From NCBI GenBank assembly GCA_003212315.1, contig QCQB01000003.1, positions 62,001-126,000 on the forward strand: a stretch of 64,000 nucleotides of DNA, in the 5' to 3' direction. The notes under the pieces were generated by a model. That model searched no databases, was not told the DNA's origin, and saw only the letters and a list, made by a program, of their open reading frames with translations. Source of the stretch: SAR116 cluster bacterium AG-447-C21 (GTDB lineage: Bacteria; Pseudomonadota; Alphaproteobacteria; Thalassobaculales; Thalassobaculaceae). The position numbers were made by a program, and so were the translations under genes. Positions 20,084 to 33,636 of this stretch are shown one piece after another. Position 1 is the first letter of the stretch, and the number at the start of each line of letters is the position of its first letter.

Positions 20084-20761
20084 TCAAATGAGATCCGCTG
20101 GAGCTTGCAATGGTTTACAGTCTGAAGCTAATGAAATTTCGGCCTCCGTTCGAGTATTTAACTCTTCGGCAGTTATCGATTCGAGCAATTCTATTGCAAT
20201 AAACCCCTGATTAGTGACGTCTACCACGGCTATATCGGTATAGATTCGATTTACACACTTTCGTGCTGTTAACGGGAGGTTGCAATAGTTTAGCAATCGG
20301 GGGCTGCCATCTTTTGTATTGTATTGCATCATCGTCCATGTTGATTTTGCTCCAACTGCAAGATCCATGGCGCCGCCTACTAATGGTCCTTTATCTGGAA
20401 TTTTTGAATCCCAGTTGGCAAGATCACCTGAGATGCTAACCTCGAAGGCTCCTAATATTGTGATATCAATATGACCTCCTCTTATCATTGCAAAAGAATT
20501 TGCTGAATCAAAAAGACTGGCGCCATCTCTAAGAGTAACTTTTCGACTCCCTGCGTCCACGAGGTTTGGATTGATGTTAAGTTCACTGGCTTCTGGTCCA
20601 ACACCTAAGATTCCATTTTCGGATTGCAGAAAAACATCGCGATCGGAAGGAATATAATTGGAAACCAGCACGGGCATTCCCAGCCCTAAATTTACAACAT
20701 TACCATCAGGAATATCCTGTGCTGCTCTCCATGCTATTTGATTTCGATTAAGCGGTTTCAA
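20084..20761 (-). CDS. 3-oxoacid CoA-transferase subunit B
   Basis: Beta subunit of a family I CoA-transferase (SCOT/PcaJ type), 225 aa. It carries the catalytic glutamate E48 in LQSENGILGVGP, the NLGLGMP segment near residue 24, and MIRGGHIDITILGAFEVS. It transfers CoA between a short-chain oxoacid and a donor such as succinyl-CoA. Its start overlaps the subunit A stop by four bases, ensuring coupled synthesis. It lies downstream of the LLM oxidoreductase in the same minus-strand unit. Confidence 0.88.
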   Translation of the reverse strand: MKPLNRNQIAWRAAQDIPDGNVVNLGLGMPVLVSNYIPSDRDVFLQSENGILGVGPEASELNINPNLVDAGSRKVTLRDGASLFDSANSFAMIRGGHIDITILGAFEVSISGDLANWDSKIPDKGPLVGGAMDLAVGAKSTWTMMQYNTKDGSPRLLNYCNLPLTARKCVNRIYTDIAVVDVTNQGFIAIELLESITAEELNTRTEAEISLASDCKPLQAPADLI

Positions 20762-21435
20762 ACTTCTCTTCCAGTGGCTATTACATGATTGACATAGACG
20801 CTGGGTAGGTGCACGTCTGTTGTAGGAAGAGCTTCATCGATTGCTTCGCGAACTTCGGCGATAGTAACTTCGCAAGCGGTTGCCATAGCAGGCGCAAAAT
20901 TCATTTGTGTGGTATTGAAATTTATGTTTCCAAATCTGTCAGCTCGATCGCCACGTATCAAAGCAAAATCACCAGTGATTGCCTCTTCAAGAACGCAATT
21001 TTTGCCGTTTATTTTACGGGTTTCTTTTCCTGTGGCTAAATCTGTTCCATATCCTGTAGGTGAATAAAAAGCGGGTATTCCGGCGCCGCCTGCACGAATT
21101 CGTTCTGCAAAATTTCCCTGCGGCACGCATTCAAGTTCAATTGACCCGTCTCTCCATTGTTCTTCGAAAGGTGATAATTCTTTTCCACGGCCTCTTGCTG
21201 CGGTGACTATTACTTTTCTTACCATTTTGGCTTCTATCAACGAATGAGTCAGCGAGTACGGATGGGTGGCGGAATTAGCCACAAGTGTAAGCTCTTTTGG
21301 TTCGGCATCTCTTAATATTTCTAATAAAAAATTTGGAAAACCTGCACCGCCAAACCCGGATACCATAATAACAGCACCATCAAATATTTTAGATATTACC
21401 TCTTTCGCAGTTTCTATTCGTTTATCGATCGCCAT
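20758..21435 (-). CDS. 3-oxoacid CoA-transferase subunit A
   Basis: Alpha subunit partner of the previous gene, 225 aa. It shows the glycine-rich SGFGGAGFPNFLLEIL motif near residue 25, a VPQGNFAERIRAGGAGIPAFYSPTG substrate region (quoted in part) and RADRFGNINFN. The pairing and 4-base overlap with subunit B are standard for this enzyme. The likely substrates are acetoacetate, 3-oxoadipate or a related oxoacid; sequence alone does not decide. The LLM oxidoreductase ends 6 bases upstream, so the three genes form one unit. Confidence 0.88.
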   Translation of the reverse strand: MAIDKRIETAKEVISKIFDGAVIMVSGFGGAGFPNFLLEILRDAEPKELTLVANSATHPYSLTHSLIEAKMVRKVIVTAARGRGKELSPFEEQWRDGSIELECVPQGNFAERIRAGGAGIPAFYSPTGYGTDLATGKETRKINGKNCVLEEAITGDFALIRGDRADRFGNINFNTTQMNFAPAMATACEVTIAEVREAIDEALPTTDVHLPSVYVNHVIATGREV

Positions 21436-21441
21436 TATTTG

Positions 21442-22437
21442 TCAATCTTCAGCGCAAGCTTTAATTGCGTCCATAAATACTTTTTGAGCCCCAGGGCCGC
21501 GTGCAAATGGGCTTATAATAGGGAGTTGTATGCCGGAGTCGCGGTAGGCTTCTATTTTGTCCCTACATTGTGATGGTGTTCCAGCTACCCCAGTCGCATC
21601 GACGATAGCGTCCGTGACACCTTTGTTTGCTGCTTCCATATCTCCCCTTTTGAAGGCAGCTGCAATATCTGCCGCTTCTTGTTCGAAACCATGCGATGCT
21701 ATCAATCTATTATAACGTGGGAAAAAGCCAATATACATAGCGAGCCCAGGACGCATGAGATCCATTGCTTCGGCACGCGTCGCGGCAACAGCTGTTGGTA
21801 ATAGCGAGGTGATTTCAACGTCCGATGAGTTTCTTCCTGCAACAGCGGCACCCACAGCAAGATTTTCACGAATATCCGCAGCGGTTTTTAAAGTGCTTCG
21901 CGTCAGAATAATACCATCTGCAATTTCTCCACATATTGCTGTCATTTTTGGAAATAATCCAGCGAGATAAATTGGTAGCTTCTTTCTATTAGGTTCAAAC
22001 CACAAATCAAAATTCTCAATTTTTATTGTTTCCCCATTAAAATTAACAGAGCCTTTTTCCAGTAATTCCCGTATCACATGAACTGTTTCTCTGACACGGA
22101 GCATCGGTTTTCCAAATTCAATTCCATGTTCAGGTACGACCTGCACTCGGTGACTGGATCCTAACCCAAGTATAAAACGACCTCCCGACAACTGGTCCAC
22201 GGTCGCTGCTGCCATGGCGATTGTTGGAGGCGATCTCACAAAAACACTGCTGATAGCGGTTCCTAACTTTATCGTGGAGGTAGTGACAGCGCATCCCGAT
22301 AAAACCGAGAACTGATCTCCACCATGCCCTTCAGCAACCCATGCGGATTCATAACCCAGTTCTTCCGCCAGTTTCACACATTCGACTATTTGGGAAGCGT
22401 TTGGCCCACCAGAAAAACCCACAGCAATTCGTTTCAT
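21442..22437 (-). CDS. LLM-class flavin-dependent oxidoreductase
   Basis: A luciferase-like TIM-barrel protein (331 aa) of the F420/FMN-dependent group. Typical features are ESAWVAEGHGGDQF near the start, LGTAISSVFVRSPPTIAMAAATVDQLSGGRFILGLGSS (in segments) and the C-terminal GTPSQCRDKIEAYRDSG. It resembles the MER/F420-like branch more than the two-component monooxygenase branch. The reaction is unknown; context suggests a catabolic oxidoreduction feeding the CoA-transferase. Confidence 0.85.
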   Translation of the reverse strand: MKRIAVGFSGGPNASQIVECVKLAEELGYESAWVAEGHGGDQFSVLSGCAVTTSTIKLGTAISSVFVRSPPTIAMAAATVDQLSGGRFILGLGSSHRVQVVPEHGIEFGKPMLRVRETVHVIRELLEKGSVNFNGETIKIENFDLWFEPNRKKLPIYLAGLFPKMTAICGEIADGIILTRSTLKTAADIRENLAVGAAVAGRNSSDVEITSLLPTAVAATRAEAMDLMRPGLAMYIGFFPRYNRLIASHGFEQEAADIAAAFKRGDMEAANKGVTDAIVDATGVAGTPSQCRDKIEAYRDSGIQLPIISPFARGPGAQKVFMDAIKACAED

Positions 22438-22527
22438 TTAATGCCTTCCGTAAGATAGTACTTATTATACAAGTTAATTATAGTTATTATATTTCTTCTT
22501 TTCAGAATAGATAAACCCTAAAACTAT

Positions 22528-23253
22528 CTAACTAAGTATAGTTTCTAACTCGGTAAAATCTTTTACGATTAGGTCTGGTTGGTGAGGACTTTCCCCAAAT
22601 GGCCGCTTCCTTCTATCTATGAAAACAGTTCTGAAACCCCACGCTTTTGCCCCTATACAATCAAAGGCATGATTAGCTACAAAAAGTATGTTAGACCGTT
22701 CTATATCTTCAAATTTGGTTGCTATTATCTCCTCTGCTTTAGCATAGGTTCTTTTATCAGGCTTGAAGGCTCCAGCCTCTTGTACCGAGATTGTCAGGTC
22801 AAATTTAAAACCAATATATTGTTTTGCTCGTTCCAACATGTCTCTGTCACCGTTTGAGAGTATTGATAACCGGTAATGTTTATGAAGTTGTTGCAGACTT
22901 TTTAAGACATCAGGAAATGGTTTTAGTTCTTCAATTCCTGAGACAAGCCATTCTACTTCGGATTGAGAGTAAGGAATATTTGCTCTGGTAAGAACTTGGC
23001 TCACTGCTCTGTGCCCAATTTGTCTGTATGGAGTATGTCCTCTATCGACGAGGGCATCAATCATAGAGTCTTCAAAATGAGTGCGCCGCCACCAGGTCAC
23101 AAACTGATGAGGATTTCCAGTCCATCCTTTATCTTTAAGAAATGGTGTCACTAATTCAGTAAGTCCTGTCTGCATATCAACAATTGTGCCATATTGATCG
23201 AACGTTAAAATCTTTATTTCACGTTTCAAAATTTCGGTAATTGAAGTAGGCAT
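22528..23253 (-). CDS. HAD-superfamily hydrolase, haloacid dehalogenase type II-like
   Basis: A 241 aa HAD phosphatase-fold protein. Motif I is LTFDQYGTIVD with the nucleophile aspartate, motif II is SILSNGDRD, motif III is the lysine in AFKPDKRTY, and motif IV region is FVANHAFDCIGAKAWGF, like (S)-2-haloacid dehalogenases. The TWWRRTHFED segment supplies the arginine that binds the substrate carboxylate in that family. Motif I (DQYGTI) deviates from the usual DAYGTL. Dehalogenation is possible but not proven; phosphatase activity is the alternative. Confidence 0.78.
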   Translation of the reverse strand: MPTSITEILKREIKILTFDQYGTIVDMQTGLTELVTPFLKDKGWTGNPHQFVTWWRRTHFEDSMIDALVDRGHTPYRQIGHRAVSQVLTRANIPYSQSEVEWLVSGIEELKPFPDVLKSLQQLHKHYRLSILSNGDRDMLERAKQYIGFKFDLTISVQEAGAFKPDKRTYAKAEEIIATKFEDIERSNILFVANHAFDCIGAKAWGFRTVFIDRRKRPFGESPHQPDLIVKDFTELETILS

Positions 23254-23295
23254 CTTCAGTCCTTTGTGAATACAGGTAACATTAAAATAATAGAT

Positions 23296-24459
23296 TTATT
23301 TGGCGTTGGTCTTATCGAAAAACCTAAGCAATAATTTGGAGGTTTCATCAGGTTGTTCCTGCTGTACCCAATGTCCTGCTCCTGGGATAAGATGAAAATC
23401 ATTCATATCGGTAAAAACCTTATCTTGCATACGTTCCGCGGCACCAGGTCGTTGAAAAACTCCCCAGTCGCTGCTGCCAGAGATAAAGCAAGATGGTATA
23501 TCTATTGTTTTACCCGAAAATATTTCAAGCTCTTTAGTATCGAAACCGGTTGTGCCACGCCGATACCAGTTTAACCCACCTTGAAAACCATTTCTCGTAT
23601 ACTCGTCTACGTAAATAGCTAGTTCATGATCTGTCAACCAGGAGTTCGCATCTATCTCAGCATGACTTGGCATTTCCTTTCCGACTGCTTGCGGCATCGT
23701 ATCGTCAAGGTCCATTATGTAATAAGTAGGCATCTTCTCTAGTTCGCTGGCGACCCAAGCTTGTAGTTTATGTGGTTTATTAGCCTTCCAGTCGGCACTT
23801 TTGTGATGATAATATGCCCTGAGAAATTTATGGATACCCTGTGGACATTGCGTCATGTCGGAATTAGCTGGTTCTGTCGAATAATACCAATGATAGTGTT
23901 TTCGGGGGCGAGCGAGTTCTCGCATCGATTGATGGATGTCAATGTGGTTTTTTGAGTTAGGCACTTCAGTATCTTTTTCTGAAGATATTTTAGGTGGTCC
24001 ATCAAAAGGTGCACTCATTAGAACGCACCGATTAAAAATATCAGGGCGAACAAGCGCACACCATGCTGCAACCGATGCGCCATAATCATGCCCCACAACG
24101 CCCGTAATTTTTTCGTATCCCAATGCATTGATCAAGCCTATGGCGTCTCGAACCGTATTCAACAAATTGAATGGAGTAAGATCACTGTCATAACCAACTG
24201 GACCCCAACCTAGTGTTCGTCCGTATCCCCTCAGGTCAGGGGCTATGACGTGGAAACCTGCTGCGGCGAGTGTCGGTATTATCTTCCGCCAGCTGTAGGC
24301 TAATTCAGGAAAACCGTGAAGCAGTAATATGACAGGTTTATTTGAGCCCTCGTATCCTGCCTCTAACACATGCATTAAAAGTCCATTGGTATTATCTATG
24401 AATCGTGATCGCACACCAACTGGAAGCACTGAGGTGTCATATGAGATTTGTAAGGTCAT
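23296..24459 (-). CDS. Alpha/beta hydrolase, epoxide-hydrolase-like
   Basis: A 387 aa alpha/beta-hydrolase with the oxyanion motif HGFPE and the nucleophile aspartate D125 in VVGHDYGASVAAW, typical of epoxide hydrolases and haloalkane dehalogenases. The C-terminal catalytic histidine is in PGAGHWVQQEQP. A long cap domain spans about 150-290. Soluble epoxide hydrolase is the closest guess; dehalogenase and fluoroacetate-type hydrolase are alternatives. It follows the DegT gene at 24475 by 15 bases, so it may belong to the end of the glycan operon or begin the catabolic set. Confidence 0.82.
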   Translation of the reverse strand: MTLQISYDTSVLPVGVRSRFIDNTNGLLMHVLEAGYEGSNKPVILLLHGFPELAYSWRKIIPTLAAAGFHVIAPDLRGYGRTLGWGPVGYDSDLTPFNLLNTVRDAIGLINALGYEKITGVVGHDYGASVAAWCALVRPDIFNRCVLMSAPFDGPPKISSEKDTEVPNSKNHIDIHQSMRELARPRKHYHWYYSTEPANSDMTQCPQGIHKFLRAYYHHKSADWKANKPHKLQAWVASELEKMPTYYIMDLDDTMPQAVGKEMPSHAEIDANSWLTDHELAIYVDEYTRNGFQGGLNWYRRGTTGFDTKELEIFSGKTIDIPSCFISGSSDWGVFQRPGAAERMQDKVFTDMNDFHLIPGAGHWVQQEQPDETSKLLLRFFDKTNAK

Positions 24460-24474
24460 AGATATTCCAACTCA

Positions 24475-25635
24475 CTAATTTTTTTTTCGTATTTTATGAA
24501 TAGCATTTTTAATGGCATCAGCAATTCTAATTTCAAAGCCATCTGGCACATGTGGTGCAACTGGAAGCGAAATAGTTTGAGCAGATAGCCATTCTGCAAC
24601 AGGGAATTGTCCAGGCTTATAATCATATTTTTCCCTATAATAAGTCATTAATGGAACTGGGCCAGGATAATGAACTGAGGTGCCGATGTTTTGGGCGTTC
24701 AACTCTGCTACAATATTATCTCGATTTAAACTGCCATCTCGAGGCAATATCGCATTTAGGCAATAGCAAGAAGAACGAGCTTTGCCCTGTACCGGATCAA
24801 AAACGGTTATCTCGTCAATTTCCGATAAGGTATTTTTAAGGGCATTATAATTTGTTTCTCGGATCTTTAATTTATGGTCGAGTTTTGCTAGCTGGCAGAG
24901 ACCGACGGCTGCCTCAACTTCATTCATTCGGTAGTTATACCCCAGTACTGGGACATCATAAATACCCGGTTTTTTGCGCATTTGATGACTGTGATCGTAG
25001 CCGAATGCTTTTCTTTTTCTTACCGATTCTGCAAGCTCGGGATCGTTAGTTGTTACCATCCCGCCCTCAATGGTAGTCATATGTTTAATAGGGTAAAACG
25101 AGAAACAACCTACGTTACCAAGAGCGCCCGCTTTTGTTTCTCCATATAATGCATCTACAGCTAACGCTGCATCTTCTATTACGAACAGCTGATGTTTTTC
25201 TGCATCGGCATTTATTTTATCCATGTCACAAGGTAACCCTAGAAAATGGACCGCCATTATACTTTTAGTATTCTCGGTTATTTGGGTAGGGATTACGTCA
25301 GATGCAATATTGCCACTTTTAGGATCAACATCTACAAATATGGGTTTTGCTGAACAATATTCTACGGCATGAGCTGTCGCCACGTGCGTCATTGCGGGCA
25401 CTATCACTTCATCTCCCAGTCCAATTTGGCGCGAAAATAAGGATAAATGAAGACCGGATGTACCCGAAGAAACAGAAATAGCGTGATCAACTCCTATATG
25501 TTTTGCAAAGGCTTCTTCAAACTCGAGACACACAGACCCGTGGGCTAAAATTGGGCCTTTTAATACTTTGGTGACAGCATCAATCTCGTCTTGATCAAGC
25601 ATCGGTTGGCCAAAGGGTATGTTATGCGTTGGCAT
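24475..25635 (-). CDS. DegT/DnrJ/EryC1/StrS sugar aminotransferase
   Basis: PLP-dependent sugar aminotransferase (386 aa), usually acting on a keto-sugar nucleotide. It starts with the family IPFGQPMLDQDEIDAV and has SVSSGTSGLHLSL for cofactor phosphate binding. IEDAALAVDA follows, and the PLP lysine K184 lies in FSFYPIKHMTTIEGG. The C-terminal LPVAPHV region is typical. It is downstream of the Gfo/Idh oxidoreductase and the WecD-like acetyltransferase, which fits the oxidise-aminate-acetylate order seen for diamino or 4-amino sugars. Confidence 0.88.
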   Translation of the reverse strand: MPTHNIPFGQPMLDQDEIDAVTKVLKGPILAHGSVCLEFEEAFAKHIGVDHAISVSSGTSGLHLSLFSRQIGLGDEVIVPAMTHVATAHAVEYCSAKPIFVDVDPKSGNIASDVIPTQITENTKSIMAVHFLGLPCDMDKINADAEKHQLFVIEDAALAVDALYGETKAGALGNVGCFSFYPIKHMTTIEGGMVTTNDPELAESVRKRKAFGYDHSHQMRKKPGIYDVPVLGYNYRMNEVEAAVGLCQLAKLDHKLKIRETNYNALKNTLSEIDEITVFDPVQGKARSSCYCLNAILPRDGSLNRDNIVAELNAQNIGTSVHYPGPVPLMTYYREKYDYKPGQFPVAEWLSAQTISLPVAPHVPDGFEIRIADAIKNAIHKIRKKN

Positions 25636-25655: not shown

Positions 25656-26660
25656 TCAAATAAGGTAGGTCACTGGAACCGTTTTCTGGGCATCTAAAGA
25701 ATCGTAACATGCAAAACAGATATCCATTACTCGAAAAATATCGGTTACGGATATCGCGGGTTGTCTATCTTCTCGGATAGCGGACACAAAATCCGGTATC
25801 AGGTCAAATTTTTCAATTCCCGGATACGCTGTTGTGACAGTGGTTTCTTGATGCGGCTGATCTCCATTATATAATCTGGCATGTGGAATATCGTTAATGA
25901 AGGTTTGTTTGGTACCATATACATTTAACGCATGAATTTTCGGACGTTGTGGACCAAGATTTGACATAGATCTCCCTAAAGTTCCATTTTCAAATCTAAG
26001 TAAATTCATGATAATATCATCAAACTTGTATGATGTATCTCTAGTGAGCAGTTTATTTCCCATTCCGTTCACTTCAATGACTTCTTGACCTATCAGCCAG
26101 CGCATCAGATCGATCATGTGGATTCCTCCACCATAGGTTACACAATAGAAATCCATTTTACCCCGCCAACCTTCGGTTAATTTCCAAAGTATTTGGTGGA
26201 TGTAATCACCTTCTATAGCAACTATGTCTCCAAAATAGCCGTCATCAATCCAGGATTTGAGCTCTTTGAACCGGGGAGCCTGCCTCAAAATTAGATTGGA
26301 AGTTATTAAGCGTCCGCTATCTTGTTGAGCTCTCAGAAGTCGCTCAGAATCTGCTCTATTCAATGCTATTGGTTTTTCTATCATCACGTGTTTACCATGA
26401 TTAAAAGCGCTTATAGCTTGCTCAACATGATGGTCGTCGTAACTTGCAATGCTGACAATATCGATCTCAGGATTCTCTGTTATCATTCGATAATCAGAGT
26501 GTCGGCCAAAAATTTTATTCCTATCTCCTACATCTTTTAAAACCCTTGGATTAATATCGCATATATCGGTTACACTGATGGCGTCTAGTTGTTGATAACC
26601 TACGACATGCTGTTCCCCAACTCCTAGTCCAACGACGCCTACATTCAGGTTCTTCTTCAT
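25656..26660 (-). CDS. Gfo/Idh/MocA-family oxidoreductase
   Basis: NAD(P)-dependent sugar oxidoreductase of 334 aa from the chosen start. It has an N-terminal Rossmann domain (VGVVGLGVGEQH), the conserved EKP motif in HVMIEKPIAL (about 95), and a C-terminal beta-sheet domain with YGGGIHMIDLMRW containing the catalytic-type histidine/aspartate. WbpB and related enzymes of nucleotide-sugar pathways belong here. The ORF track starts ten codons earlier; the ATG at 26660 forms a TAATG overlap with the acetyltransferase stop, a strong sign of translational coupling. Confidence 0.85.
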   Translation of the reverse strand: MKKNLNVGVVGLGVGEQHVVGYQQLDAISVTDICDINPRVLKDVGDRNKIFGRHSDYRMITENPEIDIVSIASYDDHHVEQAISAFNHGKHVMIEKPIALNRADSERLLRAQQDSGRLITSNLILRQAPRFKELKSWIDDGYFGDIVAIEGDYIHQILWKLTEGWRGKMDFYCVTYGGGIHMIDLMRWLIGQEVIEVNGMGNKLLTRDTSYKFDDIIMNLLRFENGTLGRSMSNLGPQRPKIHALNVYGTKQTFINDIPHARLYNGDQPHQETTVTTAYPGIEKFDLIPDFVSAIREDRQPAISVTDIFRVMDICFACYDSLDAQKTVPVTYLI

Positions 26661-27373
26661 TAAATGGCTTCTATATTTTTTGGGGTCCAATGAAAAGTGA
26701 TTGCTTCATCTACTTTTTTAAACCCAGTTGATTTGTATAGCCTAATTGAGGCCTCGTTATTTAATTGGGTTCCTACTCTTATCGCTGAAACGCTGTTGGT
26801 ATAATGGGAAATAACAGCGTTTATCAATATTGTTCCTATTCCTTTTCCCTGAGCTTCAGTTGAGACCCCAACTAAATCAATGGTAGCTAAATTATCTTCT
26901 TGGAGACACGAAATAAATCCAACAATTTGATCCTCTAGTTGAATGACAAAATTTAAATCACTCCGCCCCAAAATATTATTTTGAGCCCATGCATATTTGC
27001 TTTGATCAGCGATTTTGTTATCAAGATATTGATCGGTATGATACCGGTCGTGGGTAAAACAGTTTTGAGCTATATTTGAGCAAGTGTATGCATCGTATGT
27101 CGAGGCTAGGCGAACGTTGGAGGGTACCTCCATCTCTTCATTTCCTCTAAAGGAGCGCTCAAAATAAATAAGATTTTCTATTTTACGGAATTGAGTATGC
27201 CGCATCGCATTCTCCCATTCCCGTGGGACACGAATTGCGACAAGCCCTGCATCTTTTGGTATGGAGTTGTCGAGTGCAGAGATATCTGAGTATTTTTCCA
27301 GATTAGCCCTGTAGACGGAAAAACCGAAAAGATCTGTATCGAACGTTTGTAAGGTCATGTTTACACTATTCAT
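26660..27373 (-). CDS. GNAT acetyltransferase, WecD-like
   Basis: A 237 aa N-acetyltransferase. The N-terminal part begins TFDTDLFGFSVYRANL, like the WecD/TDP-fucosamine acetyltransferase group. The C-terminal GNAT domain includes the acetyl-CoA binding segment EAQGKGIGTILI (motif A) and NEASIRLYKSTGFKKV (motif B). I infer that it acetylates the amino group installed by the DegT protein, since WecE/WecD pair this way. A second in-frame ATG at codon 6 is possible. Its stop overlaps the Gfo/Idh start. Confidence 0.8.
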   Translation of the reverse strand: MNSVNMTLQTFDTDLFGFSVYRANLEKYSDISALDNSIPKDAGLVAIRVPREWENAMRHTQFRKIENLIYFERSFRGNEEMEVPSNVRLASTYDAYTCSNIAQNCFTHDRYHTDQYLDNKIADQSKYAWAQNNILGRSDLNFVIQLEDQIVGFISCLQEDNLATIDLVGVSTEAQGKGIGTILINAVISHYTNSVSAIRVGTQLNNEASIRLYKSTGFKKVDEAITFHWTPKNIEAI

Positions 27374-27385
27374 ATCATTGCCTGC

Positions 27386-28195
27386 TCATAGCGGCATCGC
27401 AAAAGCACGGAGTGTGAACTTTCCGCTAGGCTCACAAACTTGATCGATTTTAAGAAGTTTAAATTTTACCGAGTTCAATAAAAACTTCAAAGATTTTCGA
27501 GAATATGCGTCAAAATGTTCAATAAAGAATTCTTCTCGGTCGGGTCCAGATTCCTCTAATGCTGTTTCGCCGTCAGGTAGTTCAATATATATAAGCCCTC
27601 CAGATTTTAGATTTAAGGTAGATTGCAAGAGCATCTCCTTTGGATTTTGTATGTGCTCTAGAACTTTATTGAAACTAATTAAATTAAATTCCCCAATTTT
27701 ATGACACTCAATCAGGTCTCCCGACAAAACTTCAATACCAATCTGCTCGCGAATTATTTCGCAGGCCTCTGGATCCGGCTCAATGGCTACGCAGTCCCAG
27801 TTTAATTCTTTAAGAACAGCTGGGAATACTCCTAAACCACTTCCTACATCGAGACATGATTTTTCTTTATCTGGTTGAGTGTCGTTCCAGAAATTGTCAA
27901 TGAAATTCACCCGTTGCCGATTATCTGATTGTTCCCTCGGCAAAGACATCAAATCGGCAAAACGAGAACGGGCTTTTTCTTTATAGGTCGTCCGTTGATA
28001 TGTTTTTTTATAAAAGTTTGTATCGATATTGAAGTTGTGTTTATTTGTAATATGCTGACATCCGATGCACTGCCATAATGATCGATTGTAGGGCAAAAAC
28101 CCAAAGTTAGTTTCGCCTTTTGGCGGCCGATTGAATTGTTTAATTAACACTTTATTACTTTTACAGAACCGGCATAATTCTTCATCTAAGTTCAT
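27386..28195 (-). CDS. SAM-dependent methyltransferase with N-terminal zinc-ribbon-like cysteines
   Basis: Class I methyltransferase, 269 aa from the chosen start. Near the N-terminus CRFC and CIGC pairs (about residues 8-11 and 45-48) suggest zinc binding. The SAM-binding domain starts at CLDVGSGLGVFPAVL and continues with VAIEPDPEACE and NLISFNKVLEHIQNP. The ORF track begins at 28243; the ATG at 28195 overlaps the amidotransferase stop by four bases (ATGA) and is preferred. In glycan clusters such enzymes O- or N-methylate sugars. The target is not known. Confidence 0.8.
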   Translation of the reverse strand: MNLDEELCRFCKSNKVLIKQFNRPPKGETNFGFLPYNRSLWQCIGCQHITNKHNFNIDTNFYKKTYQRTTYKEKARSRFADLMSLPREQSDNRQRVNFIDNFWNDTQPDKEKSCLDVGSGLGVFPAVLKELNWDCVAIEPDPEACEIIREQIGIEVLSGDLIECHKIGEFNLISFNKVLEHIQNPKEMLLQSTLNLKSGGLIYIELPDGETALEESGPDREEFFIEHFDAYSRKSLKFLLNSVKFKLLKIDQVCEPSGKFTLRAFAMPL

Positions 28196-29325
28196 GCCTT
28201 CTCCCAATCCCATTCTTGGGTTATGAAACCGGGTATTTTCCAAGTATTTTTCTCTTTAATCCAGATTTCCTTGTTTCGAAACCGCTCAGTTGTGCTCCAG
28301 AACCAATCAACTGGTTTTTCCATGAAATCACAGAACCGCTCAATATCTTCGCAGGGTTTTTGGAGGCCCGTTTTTTCTAAATTTTGTATAGCCTCTTTTC
28401 GACTGATCCTGCCATATCGAATTTCAACTGACAAATTATCAAAAATTCTTAAAAACCCGAACTTATGCCATTTTAAAAAATGGTGCAGTGAAATAAAATG
28501 ACAGTCTATATCGGCAAATTCCCAGCTGCCTGTTTTCTTATTTGAACTATGGCTAGAAAACCCGTACTTCGTCGCGGCTTCAAAATTTTTAAAAGAGTCC
28601 CACCTGAAAAAGGAACCCAGGAAAATAGACTTAGGATGGAAGGTTTTCAAATCTGCCGTGGTAGGCAGAGCATATGGGGATAGATCAGCATCAGTTAGTT
28701 CGTTAACCCCAATCCAGTCCTCTCTCTTTGTTTGATTGGTAACACCATAGTTTGTAATCCAGTTGACGTCTAATTCAGTACTCAACCTATCTGCTTCTGG
28801 CCCCCCAAATTCTAGTTGGGGATTTTCGCCCCAAATTATAAGAGGCACGCGTAATTGTGTGGCAAGCCTATATGGAATTGCAAAGATAGCCATATGCATG
28901 GGAATGCCTGTTGCTCCCTTTTTCTCAAAACTCGCCATCATAAATCTTTTTTCAACGTTTGGATTAATCGAAAAATCAATGTGATCCACTCCAAGCTTTT
29001 TAATCAGTTGGTCTAAATTTTCTTGTCCAACCGCCGTCCTTTGGGGTGTACGCCAACTAACGCAGAGAATTTTCAAACCATGAAGTTGGCTCTTAATAAC
29101 CTGATACCAGCTATCTTTTCCGCCACTCACTGGTATTATACAATCGTAGTCACGCGACGTTTCTTTTGTCCGCTTTACTATACTATCAAACATTTTGGAA
29201 CGCGCGCTCCAATCAATGCTTCGCTCTTTATCTTCGTGGCCACGGCAAGCCGAACAAACTCCCTTGTTATCTATTACTAACCCGGGCCGTGTTTCTGGAA
29301 GAATACACTGGATACAATAGTTCAT
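28192..29325 (-). CDS. N-acetyl sugar amidotransferase (WbpG/PseA family)
   Basis: ATP-pyrophosphatase-type amidotransferase of 377 aa. The N-terminus has two CxxC pairs (C4/C7 and C24/C27). The PP-loop motif is PVSGGKDSWYQ (about 66). KILCVSWRTPQRTAVGQENLDQLI follows (in part), then the conserved IIWGENPQLEFGG. WbpG (Pseudomonas O-antigen) and PseA (Campylobacter) convert an N-acetyl to an acetamidino group on uronic or nonulosonic sugars. WbpG normally partners with HisH/HisF homologues. None is adjacent here; the neighbour upstream is an AsnB-type enzyme with a 4-base overlap, which may supply ammonia (inference). Confidence 0.86.
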   Translation of the reverse strand: MNYCIQCILPETRPGLVIDNKGVCSACRGHEDKERSIDWSARSKMFDSIVKRTKETSRDYDCIIPVSGGKDSWYQVIKSQLHGLKILCVSWRTPQRTAVGQENLDQLIKKLGVDHIDFSINPNVEKRFMMASFEKKGATGIPMHMAIFAIPYRLATQLRVPLIIWGENPQLEFGGPEADRLSTELDVNWITNYGVTNQTKREDWIGVNELTDADLSPYALPTTADLKTFHPKSIFLGSFFRWDSFKNFEAATKYGFSSHSSNKKTGSWEFADIDCHFISLHHFLKWHKFGFLRIFDNLSVEIRYGRISRKEAIQNLEKTGLQKPCEDIERFCDFMEKPVDWFWSTTERFRNKEIWIKEKNTWKIPGFITQEWDWEKA

Positions 29326-31154
29326 GGGTTCCAGTCCTGGTAGTGTTCTAAAAATAATTTGGCTGATATAAAGCTAAATAGATTTTTAGAGAAGCTATTA
29401 TCGGTCAGGTCAGAATTAAGATACGACTCTATTTTATCTTTTCTTACTATATCAAAAATAGGTCCATCTGCCATTAAGTGCTCCCGCGTGACTTTATCTT
29501 TCCTGTCGACCAAATGATCGATTGGGGCGTTGAAACCTCTTTTACGTTTATCCCATAGTACATTATCGGAAACAAAACCGGTCCCAGCAGCGCGTAAAAG
29601 ATATTTGACATATCCATTTTTGATTAAAAGCTCTGGGGGAATTTGGAAAAGGAATTCTGCTAAATCTCTATCGAGATATGGCGAACGATTTTCTACAGAA
29701 TAGTACATAGAGTTTCTATCGTCCTCATGTAAGATCACGGGTATAGTTTCATGACGGATCTCATTTAACATTCGGTTTCTCAGCAGGTTATTTGAATATT
29801 CGGATTCCTCAAAAGTTTCCTCGAACGGATCATGCAACCACGCATTGAAAGTTTCCGAATTTAAAAATATGTGACCTCTCTCAAGTGGGTTTTTAAAAAA
29901 AACCAGAGGGTCTTGAAGTACAGGGTTTTGCACGTAAGCACCGTAACTCTTTTGCCAATCTGATTGAAGATCAGTAAAAGAATTTTTATTTTTCATCTCA
30001 GCCAACCAAAAGGAATAATGGTCGTAGTAGCCAGTGAATAATTCATCAGCGCCATTCCCTGAAATGGCTACGCGGCAACCTGCTTCGGATATGGCTTCAG
30101 ACATGAAAGAATGCAGATAGTATGTGAGCGTTGCTACTGGCATATCGTGATATGCAACAAGGTCTTTTAACCTCTCAAAAAAACCTTTCGTACTCGTCTG
30201 TGTTCGATGATTAGAGCACCCTAGGAACTCTATTTGGGATTCAATATTGGTACGTTCATTATAGCGTTCGTCATCATCTATTATTGAAAAAGTCTTGATA
30301 TCAGGGCCAAATTCTTTTGTTGCTATACCTGCTATTGTTGAGGAATCTATTCCGCCAGAAAGGCAGAACGCTATGGGCATATCGGAACGCATTCTTATTT
30401 TTACAGAATTGATAAGACGTTCCTTAACACCATGGATGGCCTCGACCTCAGTAATTTGCGATGGGTCATAACTTAATGACCAATAACATATAGTTTGTAT
30501 CTTCTGAGTTGCTGTAATTCTAATAAAATGAGCTGCGGGTACTTCATTTATATTTTCAAAATATGTTGCAGGTTTTTTGTATAACGATTTATAGCCGTTC
30601 ACTAGATACCGCTTGATTTGTCTCTCATTAATTTGTGGTTTACGCCCTGCTAAAGTGGCTAAAAATTTTGGTTCTGAACCAAAGTACAGGGTGTTGTCAT
30701 GGGTCCAGGTATAAAGTGGTTTTTCTCCAAATCTATCGCGACATAATATCAATTGCTCTCTGGCTGTATCGACGAGAGCGAAAGCCCACATCCCTTCCAT
30801 TTTATTGAGGGAGGCTTCTCCCCACTGTTGCCAGGCGGCTAACATTACTTCGGTATCAGATTTTGTGGAGAATGTATGTCCAAAAGATATCAGGGTTCTT
30901 CTAAGTTCAACATAATTATATAATTCACCATTAGTTATGATTGTTAAATTGCCTCTGGTGAATGGCTGCATTGATTGCGGTGTTGGATCTACAATTCCGA
31001 GGCGGGAGAAAAGCAAAGTTACAATTTTCCCACCAAAAGAAATCGGTTTAAATGCCGCGCCATCGGGGCCTCTTTTTCTCATAAGGTCCAGACAGAGGTT
31101 AATTTTATTCTTATCAAGTCCTTTGAGGCTAATTGCTCCAGCTATCCCACACAT
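29322..31154 (-). CDS. Asparagine synthase-like amidotransferase (AsnB type)
   Basis: A 610 aa two-domain enzyme. The N-terminal class II glutaminase uses Cys2 (MCGIAGAIS) and has the NGELYNYVELR and DRFGEKPLYTW segments. The C-terminal synthetase domain has the PP-loop FCLSGGIDSSTIAG (about 260) and GNGADELFTGYYDH. It could make asparagine, but such enzymes in surface-polysaccharide clusters (WbpS-type) often amidate uronic acids or other carboxylates. Its 4-base overlap with the sugar amidotransferase argues for a glycan role. An alternative is a plain metabolic AsnB that was recruited by position. Confidence 0.87.
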   Translation of the reverse strand: MCGIAGAISLKGLDKNKINLCLDLMRKRGPDGAAFKPISFGGKIVTLLFSRLGIVDPTPQSMQPFTRGNLTIITNGELYNYVELRRTLISFGHTFSTKSDTEVMLAAWQQWGEASLNKMEGMWAFALVDTAREQLILCRDRFGEKPLYTWTHDNTLYFGSEPKFLATLAGRKPQINERQIKRYLVNGYKSLYKKPATYFENINEVPAAHFIRITATQKIQTICYWSLSYDPSQITEVEAIHGVKERLINSVKIRMRSDMPIAFCLSGGIDSSTIAGIATKEFGPDIKTFSIIDDDERYNERTNIESQIEFLGCSNHRTQTSTKGFFERLKDLVAYHDMPVATLTYYLHSFMSEAISEAGCRVAISGNGADELFTGYYDHYSFWLAEMKNKNSFTDLQSDWQKSYGAYVQNPVLQDPLVFFKNPLERGHIFLNSETFNAWLHDPFEETFEESEYSNNLLRNRMLNEIRHETIPVILHEDDRNSMYYSVENRSPYLDRDLAEFLFQIPPELLIKNGYVKYLLRAAGTGFVSDNVLWDKRKRGFNAPIDHLVDRKDKVTREHLMADGPIFDIVRKDKIESYLNSDLTDNSFSKNLFSFISAKLFLEHYQDWNP

Positions 31155-31178
31155 ATCTTTATGTTCTCATCAACTAGT

Positions 31179-32192
31179 CTACGAGAAATGCTCATTGGAG
31201 AAGAGCTCACCAATTTGGATTGAGTTTTTTAATGTTTTTCCCAAAACTTGATGCTCCAAGCCTGGACGAAATCCGTTCCCGGGTCGAATCCACATAATGT
31301 CGTTATACACTATAGTATCACCCGCTTCGATATTTCTGGCCGCAGCAATTGATCGTCGAACAGGAGGTTCGGTATTGCGCTCTATTTCACAAGGGTCCAG
31401 AGACCCAGTTCCCAAAAGTATTTCAGTATCTCTTATTTTTGTTACTAATTCCGCCATCGAGGTTGGATCTGCTGATAACTGGTGGTCTCTAAATTCTGAG
31501 TAATTTCTATCGATTGTGAAGTGCTTTTCAATAATTCTTGCTCCGGCTGCGACAGCGAGAATAGCCGCCTCGTTTCCTATGGTATGGTCCGAATATCCAA
31601 TTGTGGTTGATGGAAATTTTTCAGCAAGTGTCCTGATGGCTGATAGATTAGCATCAGAGGGGTTAACAGGGTAAGCCGAGACGCAATGCAGCAAAGCTAA
31701 GCCGGAGTAGGAGGTTCTCATGGGTCTATTGTTCTTAATCAAAGAGGCAGAAAATTTGATTTGTTCTTCATCAGCAAAACCGGTGGATAAAATTATTGGT
31801 TTATCGCTTTTTGATACCAACTCTATTAAGGGGTAAAATGTATTATCACCAGAAGCAATTTTCAATGCATCTACTATTTTAATCAAAAAGGTTGCACTAG
31901 GCATGTCAAGCGGCGTCGATATAAATAGCAAACCATTATTTCTAGCCCGAACAGCAAGTTCTTCGAAGTTTTCCGTAGTTAGTTCAAAACCTTTCATGCG
32001 ATTGAACCTATCGACGTCACCAGGAGACACGAATGTTTCGGTTTTAAAAGTTTGAAACTTTACAGCGTCCACGCCCGCATCAGCGGCTTTGTCTACAAGT
32101 TGTCGGCCAAGTTCAACGGACCCCTCGTGATTATTCCCAATTTCAGCGACAATCATTACCTTGTCACGGGTATCCAAATTCCCAATTTTCAC
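31179..32192 (-). CDS. NeuB-family nonulosonate (sialic acid-like) synthase
   Basis: Condenses phosphoenolpyruvate with an N-acetyl-hexosamine derivative to form a nine-carbon sugar. The 337 aa protein has the TIM-barrel NeuB domain (MIVAEIGNNHEGS, AVKFQTFKTE, STPLDMPSA, IGYSDHTIG, IIEKHFTIDR) and a C-terminal SAF/antifreeze-like domain (about 275-335, RRSIAAARNIEAGDTI). It could be NeuB, PseI, LegI or a spore-coat SpsE-type protein. GTG start with GGGGG upstream. No dehydratase, epimerase/hydrolase or CMP-transferase gene is in the window. Confidence 0.9.
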   Translation of the reverse strand: MKIGNLDTRDKVMIVAEIGNNHEGSVELGRQLVDKAADAGVDAVKFQTFKTETFVSPGDVDRFNRMKGFELTTENFEELAVRARNNGLLFISTPLDMPSATFLIKIVDALKIASGDNTFYPLIELVSKSDKPIILSTGFADEEQIKFSASLIKNNRPMRTSYSGLALLHCVSAYPVNPSDANLSAIRTLAEKFPSTTIGYSDHTIGNEAAILAVAAGARIIEKHFTIDRNYSEFRDHQLSADPTSMAELVTKIRDTEILLGTGSLDPCEIERNTEPPVRRSIAAARNIEAGDTIVYNDIMWIRPGNGFRPGLEHQVLGKTLKNSIQIGELFSNEHFS

Positions 32193-32352: not shown

Positions 32353-33636
32353 GTGTCAGAAAGTGCAATTGCTATTGTTGGGGTTGGCTATGTGGGTTTG
32401 CCTTTGGCTGTTGGCCTAGCGAATCATCATGATGACGTCATTGCTTTTGATGTAAATGGAAAGCGAATAATGGATTTAATTGCGGGAGTTGATAAAAACG
32501 ATCCGACGAGCTGTAAAACAATCTTTCCAACATCACTAGAATTCACATCTGATGTAGGCAATATTAATAGAGCAAGTGTTTACATTATCACTGTTCCAAC
32601 CCCAATAGATAGTAACAGACTTCCAGATTTAACGCTCCTCAAAAATAGCTGTACAATGATAGCCTCAGTAATATCAAAGGGTGACCTTGTTATTGTCGAA
32701 TCGACCGTTTATCCCGGGGTCACAGAGGAAATCTGCGGCCCATTGATCCAAGAAGTATCCGGTTTGCTTATGGGGGAGGAGTTTTATCTTGGCTATTCCC
32801 CAGAGCGTATAAATCCTGGAGACATCGATAATAATTTAGAATCGGTAGTAAAAATTATTGCGGCCCAGGATCCAGAAACCCTAGAAAGAATTGAAGCCAT
32901 TTATGCTCCGGTCATTACTGCAGGTCTTCATCTAGCTGAAACTATACAGGTTGCTGAAGCTGCAAAGATTGTCGAAAATGTGCAACGAGATCTAAATATA
33001 GCGTTGATGAATGAACTCGCAATGATATTTGATCGAATGGGGATACGGACGGCAGATGTATTAAATGCTGCAGCAACCAAATGGAACTTTCAAAAGTTCA
33101 CTCCTGGACTTGTTGGCGGGCATTGCATAGGGGTTGATCCTTATTACTTAATCTCGAAAGCCGAAGGACTGGGCTACTATCCAGAGCTAATTAGGGCAGC
33201 GAGGCGATTGAATAATGGATTGGCAGGCCATGTCAGCCAAAAAACGGTTGAGTTGATAGTGAGTTCTGGTCGTTCAATGAATGATTGTAGTATTGGTGTC
33301 CTTGGGCTTACTTTTAAAGAAAACGTTTCTGATGTAAGAAATAGTCAGTCTCCGATAATAGTGCATGAACTGGGTCGATATGGTGCGACTGTTGTTTGCC
33401 ATGATCCTTATGCGGATCATAAAAGTTTGCTTGATAACTATAGTATCCAGGTAGGCCCTCTAGAGATGCTCAGCGAATTAGATGCTTTAATTGTCATCGT
33501 CCCTCATTCGACTTATTTAGAAATGCCAATAAACCAGTTGACCTCCATGCTAAAAAAAGATGGAGTTTTTATTGATGTCAAATCGGCATTTGATCCAAAA
33601 ATGATATCGGAATCAGTTCGATATTGGAGTCTTTAG
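32353..33636 (+). CDS. Nucleotide sugar dehydrogenase (TviB/WbpA type)
   Basis: NAD-dependent oxidation of a UDP-N-acetylhexosamine to the uronic acid. The 427 aa sequence has VGVGYVGLPLAVGLA at the N-terminus, STVYPGVTEEICGP, YSPERINPGD, the catalytic cysteine in GGHCIGVDPYYL, and LGLTFKENVSDVRNSQ, which favours the UDP-GlcNAc/GalNAc dehydrogenase branch over UDP-glucose dehydrogenase. The start is GTG. It is the first gene of the plus-strand glycan unit. It would supply the uronic acid that a WbpG-type amidotransferase acts on. Confidence 0.9.
   Translation: MSESAIAIVGVGYVGLPLAVGLANHHDDVIAFDVNGKRIMDLIAGVDKNDPTSCKTIFPTSLEFTSDVGNINRASVYIITVPTPIDSNRLPDLTLLKNSCTMIASVISKGDLVIVESTVYPGVTEEICGPLIQEVSGLLMGEEFYLGYSPERINPGDIDNNLESVVKIIAAQDPETLERIEAIYAPVITAGLHLAETIQVAEAAKIVENVQRDLNIALMNELAMIFDRMGIRTADVLNAAATKWNFQKFTPGLVGGHCIGVDPYYLISKAEGLGYYPELIRAARRLNNGLAGHVSQKTVELIVSSGRSMNDCSIGVLGLTFKENVSDVRNSQSPIIVHELGRYGATVVCHDPYADHKSLLDNYSIQVGPLEMLSELDALIVIVPHSTYLEMPINQLTSMLKKDGVFIDVKSAFDPKMISESVRYWSL

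Follow-up and report, generated by a model that had tools for sequence, protein, structure and literature searches.

Gene content of the locus

The window, the whole stretch of 64,000 nucleotides that was analysed, holds four successive minus-strand genes at the locus studied here. A NeuB-family nonulosonate synthase with NeuB and SAF domains (31179-32192; PF03102, 223.5 bits) lies directly upstream of an AsnB-like glutamine-dependent amidotransferase (29322-31154) and an N-acetyl sugar amidotransferase, WbuX (28192-29325), and a SAM-dependent methyltransferase (27386-28243; PF13489) follows directly downstream in the position of a PtmH-like N-methyltransferase. The coordinates and strand given in the initial annotation are correct, as is the four-base overlap (ATGA) between the AsnB and WbuX genes. 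The true start of the methyltransferase is probably the ATG at 28195, which overlaps the WbuX stop. Next on the minus strand come genes for a WecD-like GNAT N-acyltransferase (26660-27373), a Gfo/Idh/MocA dehydrogenase (25656-26690), whose best NCBIfam match, UDP-GlcNAc 3-dehydrogenase, is below cut-off, and a PseC/LegC-like sugar aminotransferase of the DegT family (24475-25635). The operon continues at 20084-24459 with a CoA-transferase pair and luciferase-like monooxygenase, HAD and alpha/beta hydrolase genes, a stretch whose conservation is limited to close relatives. A TviB-like UDP-GlcNAc 6-dehydrogenase (32353-33636, plus strand) is divergent from NeuB.

NeuB scores below the equivalog cut-offs of both NnaB (287 against 400 bits) and PseI (224 against 340 bits), which assigns it to neither the legionaminic nor the pseudaminic acid equivalog. 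The other two components of a nonulosonic-acid cluster, a cytidylyltransferase and an NDP-sugar dehydratase, are absent from the window and are found on contig C5 of the source genome, beside a second gene of the asparagine synthase family. Since many related NeuB-AsnB-WbuX clusters include homologues of both C5 genes, the source genome probably has its pathway divided between two sites, and the combination of NeuB, dehydratase, DegT, GNAT and cytidylyltransferase points to a nonulosonic acid as the product. A described parallel is the Leg5AmNMe7Ac pathway of Legionella and Campylobacter, in which amidination of legionaminic acid (PtmG) is followed by N-methylation (PtmH), so that an N-acetyl sugar amidotransferase (NASAT) and an N-methyltransferase act on a nonulosonic acid as they would here; unlike at the window locus, the portion of that account drawn on here mentions no AsnB partner (PMC3766260).

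Features of WbuX and the AsnB-like protein

WbuX matches TIGR03573 (E=6.6e-93, 311.9 bits; curated cut-off 203.2) and gave no match in a Pfam search. It has the zinc-type CxxC...CxxC tetracysteine (C4, C7, C24, C27) and the SGGxDS PP-loop (S67-S72, SGGKDS). With the WbpG/WbuX/PseA/PtmG family it shares these two motifs and the fold, its model matching the NASAT crystal structure 8WEX, which was published without a demonstrated mechanism, at a TM score of about 0.8 (PMC10607449). What sets it apart from that family is a separate clade, here called A-type, which includes the window protein, takes up 88 of the 151 rows of the joint WbuX tree (SH-aLRT 99-100), extends over about 20 phyla and is without HisH and HisF, the partners that are usual for TIGR03573 proteins, if not formally defining, and that are absent at the window locus. 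A-type and HisHF-type WbuX differ in a compact segment (266-298) and at a few other sites; the HisHF-type has a GFGRAT-D segment where the A-type has TR-FDNLS, together with clade-specific residues at 266-298. These differences would fit a change of partner or of acceptor. Elsewhere in the family, HisF-WbuX fusion proteins adjoin HisH (L064, L078, L080, L084, L114, L116, L131, L137, L138, L161 and L166), which directly supports, for that branch, a complex of HisH, HisF and WbuX; an equivalent AsnB-WbuX gene fusion was found at none of the loci scanned. WbuX homologues are also present on 30 contigs classed as viral (IMG/VR, L172-L201), several with NeuB and HisF-like genes, and these appear to be viral sugar-modification cassettes.

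The AsnB-like protein matches PF00733, GATase_7 and TIGR01536 (372.4 bits; cut-off 267.1). Its N-terminus, MCGIAG, provides the nucleophile of a Cys2 glutaminase, as the initial annotation had it, and Cys1, Arg49, Asn74, Gly75, Glu76 and Asp98 (E. coli AS-B reference), as well as the PP-loop SGGxDS of the synthetase domain, are invariant in its clade except for gaps. Members of the clade are full two-domain proteins and form a sharply delimited group: in a survey selected by AsnB alone they scored above 650 bits and all others below 400, with a clear gap between. The structure model (pLDDT 91.6) has TsnB9 (7ylz) and AS-B (1ct9) as its nearest folds. With E. coli AS-B and human ASNS the clade has in common the two-domain architecture, the Cys1/Arg49/Asn74/Asp98 site and the PP-loop, and the equivalent of Lys449 of AS-B is apparently kept. 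Unlike these enzymes, it forms a clade of its own, sits within nonulosonate clusters and has lost Glu348, a residue present in both the E. coli and the human asparagine synthetase and found in 0 of 79 clade members, nearly all of which have Thr, Asn, Ser or Val; the window protein has Asn, with SGNGADE in place of SGEG[AS]DE.

We take Glu348 to govern acyl-adenylate formation in AS-B, and a literature search on its role returned nothing relevant. Beta-lactam synthetase has Tyr at this position, and other AsnB-like families replace the residue as well (Leu, His), so its loss indicates that the product is not asparagine and does not indicate which substrate is used. TsnB9, a hydroxyamidotransferase and the closest solved structure in both sequence and fold, is likewise a relative that does not make asparagine, but it keeps Glu at position 348 (SGEAADE) and belongs to a different pathway. 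On these residues the AsnB clade probably no longer makes asparagine, and the automated naming as asparagine synthase on a TIGR01536 score above cut-off is probably an over-call. We rejected a plain metabolic AsnB on the lost Glu348, the separate clade and the second asparagine synthase family gene on C5; the window protein is neither the sole member of that family in the genome nor closest to metabolic AsnB.

Two further groups of sequences were noted. A second AsnB-like family, with the motif GLGGDE, lacks the glutaminase residues Cys1, Arg49 and Asn74, keeps the PP-loop and often lies 3-5 kb downstream of A-type WbuX (L091:8063-9883, which is G000:C5, and L061, L073, L084, L111, L121, L127, L131, L135, L144, L145 and L154). 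Extra copies of the AsnB clade itself (L261, L262 and L263, with NGNGADE or NGMGSDE) have neither NeuB nor WbuX nearby.

Conservation of the AsnB-WbuX pair and distribution of HisH and HisF

In a first survey, selected by WbuX alone, 48 of 146 relatives had a TIGR03573 match, 40 of them above cut-off. The tree of these 48 proteins contains one clade of 17 rows (100/100) with an AsnB neighbour in 16; the seventeenth (L083) retains no more than the C-terminal end of AsnB, next to an integrase gene. HisH and HisF are adjacent in none of the 17, whereas most other WbuX genes have them adjacent. A second survey, in which GTDB genomes were scanned with the A-type alignment, yielded 80 loci from many phyla. 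Flanks of at least 2.5 kb on either side are available for 63 A-type loci. In 55 of them an AsnB of the clade is encoded on the WbuX strand no more than 2.5 kb away, and in two it lies on the opposite strand; of the remainder, two have another AsnB-like protein and four no AsnB. The other WbuX genes have HisH/HisF in 28 of 42 cases and AsnB in 4 of 42. AsnB and WbuX are separated by 20 bases or fewer in 55 of 68 pairs, the recurring gene order is Gfo-DegT-dehydratase-GNAT-NeuB-AsnB-WbuX-methyltransferase, and a methyltransferase homologue is found within 2.5 kb of WbuX at 45 of the 63 full-flank loci. The adjacency reported in the initial annotation is thus widely conserved.

That annotation had also reported no HisH or HisF for the amidotransferase, and the wider data agree. 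There is none within the window, and whole-assembly searches found a single WbuX, a single HisH (C6:12864) and a single HisF (C6:14858), the latter two clustered with the single HisA (C6:14107) on one contig and one strand. As the source assembly (2.67 Mb) is 83% complete, absence from this genome alone is weak evidence, and the conclusion is carried by the comparative data. None of the 63 full-flank A-type loci has its own HisH/HisF, a count that rests on HisH as well as on a HisF profile into which HisF-WbuX fusions had strayed; two divergent HisH matches (L138, L166) were assigned by hand to an opposite-strand HisF-WbuX fusion, and for the AsnB-selected survey the HisF profile was rebuilt from short HisF sequences. 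Six genomes that are at least 90% complete and have an A-type protein as their sole WbuX (G003, G007, G011, G116, G126 and G147) each contain exactly one HisH above cut-off, whereas ten genomes with HisHF-type WbuX contain two or three each, which makes a dedicated HisH/HisF pair elsewhere in the A-type genomes unlikely.

Because A-type WbuX is essentially one clade, its association with AsnB amounts to little more than one evolutionary event, and for the same reason an independent-pairs test on the WbuX tree, with AsnB set against HisHF, was without power. The dependence is one-sided, in that A-type WbuX nearly always occurs with AsnB and AsnB not always with A-type WbuX. In one A-type lineage (L163, L164 and L171) an AsnB of the clade is found nowhere in the genomes and HisH/HisF are not nearby, and AsnB may therefore be unnecessary for A-type WbuX. 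At L099 an A-type WbuX without adjoining AsnB occurs in a genome that has an AsnB-HisH-HisF-WbuX operon elsewhere.

Exchange of the amidination module and a model for AsnB

The AsnB clade occurs in two operon types, NeuB-AsnB-WbuX with an A-type WbuX, and NeuB-AsnB-HisH-HisF-WbuX. The latter order is seen at L056, L251, L254, L256 and L260, with reordered versions at L050 and L255, and the WbuX proteins of these operons form one clade of their own (SH-aLRT 100). On the AsnB tree there are about six changes of context between the two types, and the AsnB motif is the same in both, which indicates that AsnB stays while the amidination module is swapped. AsnB is thus the constant part of the nonulosonic-acid pathway and the amidination module the variable part. 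Both modules can also occur together: at L114, L131, L138, L161 and L166 an A-type WbuX with AsnB shares its cluster with HisH and a HisF-WbuX fusion, giving two amidotransferases with different partner arrangements. Since AsnB with the same motif stands beside HisH-HisF-WbuX, it should have a role beyond what HisH and HisF cover, and since AsnB is kept even where the module brings a glutaminase of its own, the comparison of operons suggests that AsnB very likely has a reaction of its own. The initial annotation had offered two roles for AsnB, supplying ammonia or carrying out a second amidation. The latter now appears likely, and a mere replacement of HisH/HisF is disfavoured by the co-occurrence of the same AsnB clade with HisH, HisF and a different WbuX at the seven loci with the HisH-HisF-WbuX module (L050, L056, L251, L254, L255, L256 and L260).

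In the model we propose, the product of the locus is an amidinated and probably N-methylated sugar of the nonulosonic-acid type. AsnB would be a dedicated glutamine-dependent, ATP-using amidotransferase of this pathway; it would no longer make asparagine and would act on a separate acceptor, located on the sugar or on one of its precursors. The A-type clade of WbuX would have lost the need for HisH/HisF, and would use its own PP-loop to turn the N-acetyl group of the sugar into an acetamidino group, with ammonia coming most likely from the glutaminase domain of the translationally coupled AsnB. We infer the acceptor of AsnB, the hand-over of ammonia and the product. A separate AsnB reaction combined with probable ammonia supply to A-type WbuX is the best explanation as a whole, and we give it an even chance of being correct. 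For the supply of ammonia by AsnB, whether alone or beside its own reaction, we put the odds at about one half. In a stricter form of the model, which we think somewhat unlikely, the HisH-HisF ammonia machine would have given way to a bifunctional relative of AsnB, which amidates the nonulosonic acid itself and also supplies WbuX with ammonia.

The module exchange also bears on two readings that assign AsnB a single task. AsnB may only amidate the nonulosonic acid or a precursor, with A-type WbuX using free ammonia or another source and the adjacency reflecting no more than an operon order of NeuB, AsnB and an amidination module. The place of AsnB, unchanged whichever module stands behind it, fits this reading, as do copies of the AsnB clade without WbuX (L261-L263 above, and L268) and the A-type lineage without AsnB. 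It does not account for A-type WbuX being far more dependent on AsnB than the reverse, nor for the A-type being the form of WbuX without any other glutaminase partner, and we consider it somewhat unlikely. If AsnB were instead only the ammonia source, its synthetase domain serving as a non-catalytic scaffold or tunnel, then the missing HisH/HisF, the translational coupling, the intact glutaminase and the lost Glu348 would all be explained. An invariant PP-loop and the retention of an intact AsnB in operons equipped with HisH and HisF speak against such a domain, and make this reading improbable.

Two further readings were considered. AsnB-like enzymes for uronamides are known, and uronamide formation has been proposed for WbpS-type enzymes; as the TviB-like dehydrogenase is a neighbour of NeuB both here and in near relatives, AsnB could make a uronamide from its UDP-HexNAcA, and WbuX would have a different sugar as its substrate. 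The dehydrogenase has homologues at no more than 8 of 87 A-type loci and 1 of 9 B-type loci, which places it outside the conserved core, whereas NeuB, dehydratase and cytidylyltransferase homologues recur; we rejected this reading as very improbable. A plain asparagine synthase whose position next to WbuX is accidental, or a HisH/HisF pair encoded in the 17% of the genome that the assembly lacks, would be in keeping with the TIGR01536 score and the incomplete assembly, and is scarcely credible given conservation over about 20 phyla, the loss of Glu348 and near-complete relatives with a single HisH.

The description of the partner arrangement as new was slightly too strong, as an AsnB-like protein of Tannerella forsythia was proposed in 2018, without a test, as the enzyme that forms the acetamidino group on pseudaminic acid (PMC6120980). 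That protein, Tanf_01265 (putative AsnB), is encoded in a pseudaminic-acid cluster, which differs in also having uronic-acid genes. In a Sphingomonas isolate, insertions in homologues of wbuX, hisF2 and hisH each affected colony form (PMC11340318). Our literature search, made largely outside subscription journals, found no paper that treats the pairing of AsnB with WbuX, the division into clades or the module exchange.

Acetamidino sugars modify flagella and lipopolysaccharide, and to our knowledge the NASAT family is represented by one crystal structure and little biochemistry. Our analysis splits this family into a part that depends on HisH/HisF and a widespread part that is free of them and has a specific AsnB partner, and it identifies a large clade of AsnB proteins that carry the name asparagine synthase in databases, yet lack a key residue. 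The natural swaps between A-type WbuX and HisH-HisF-WbuX in otherwise similar operons make the source of ammonia directly testable. Should the bifunctional form of the model be true, one glutaminase would serve two ATP-dependent amidations within a single sugar pathway.
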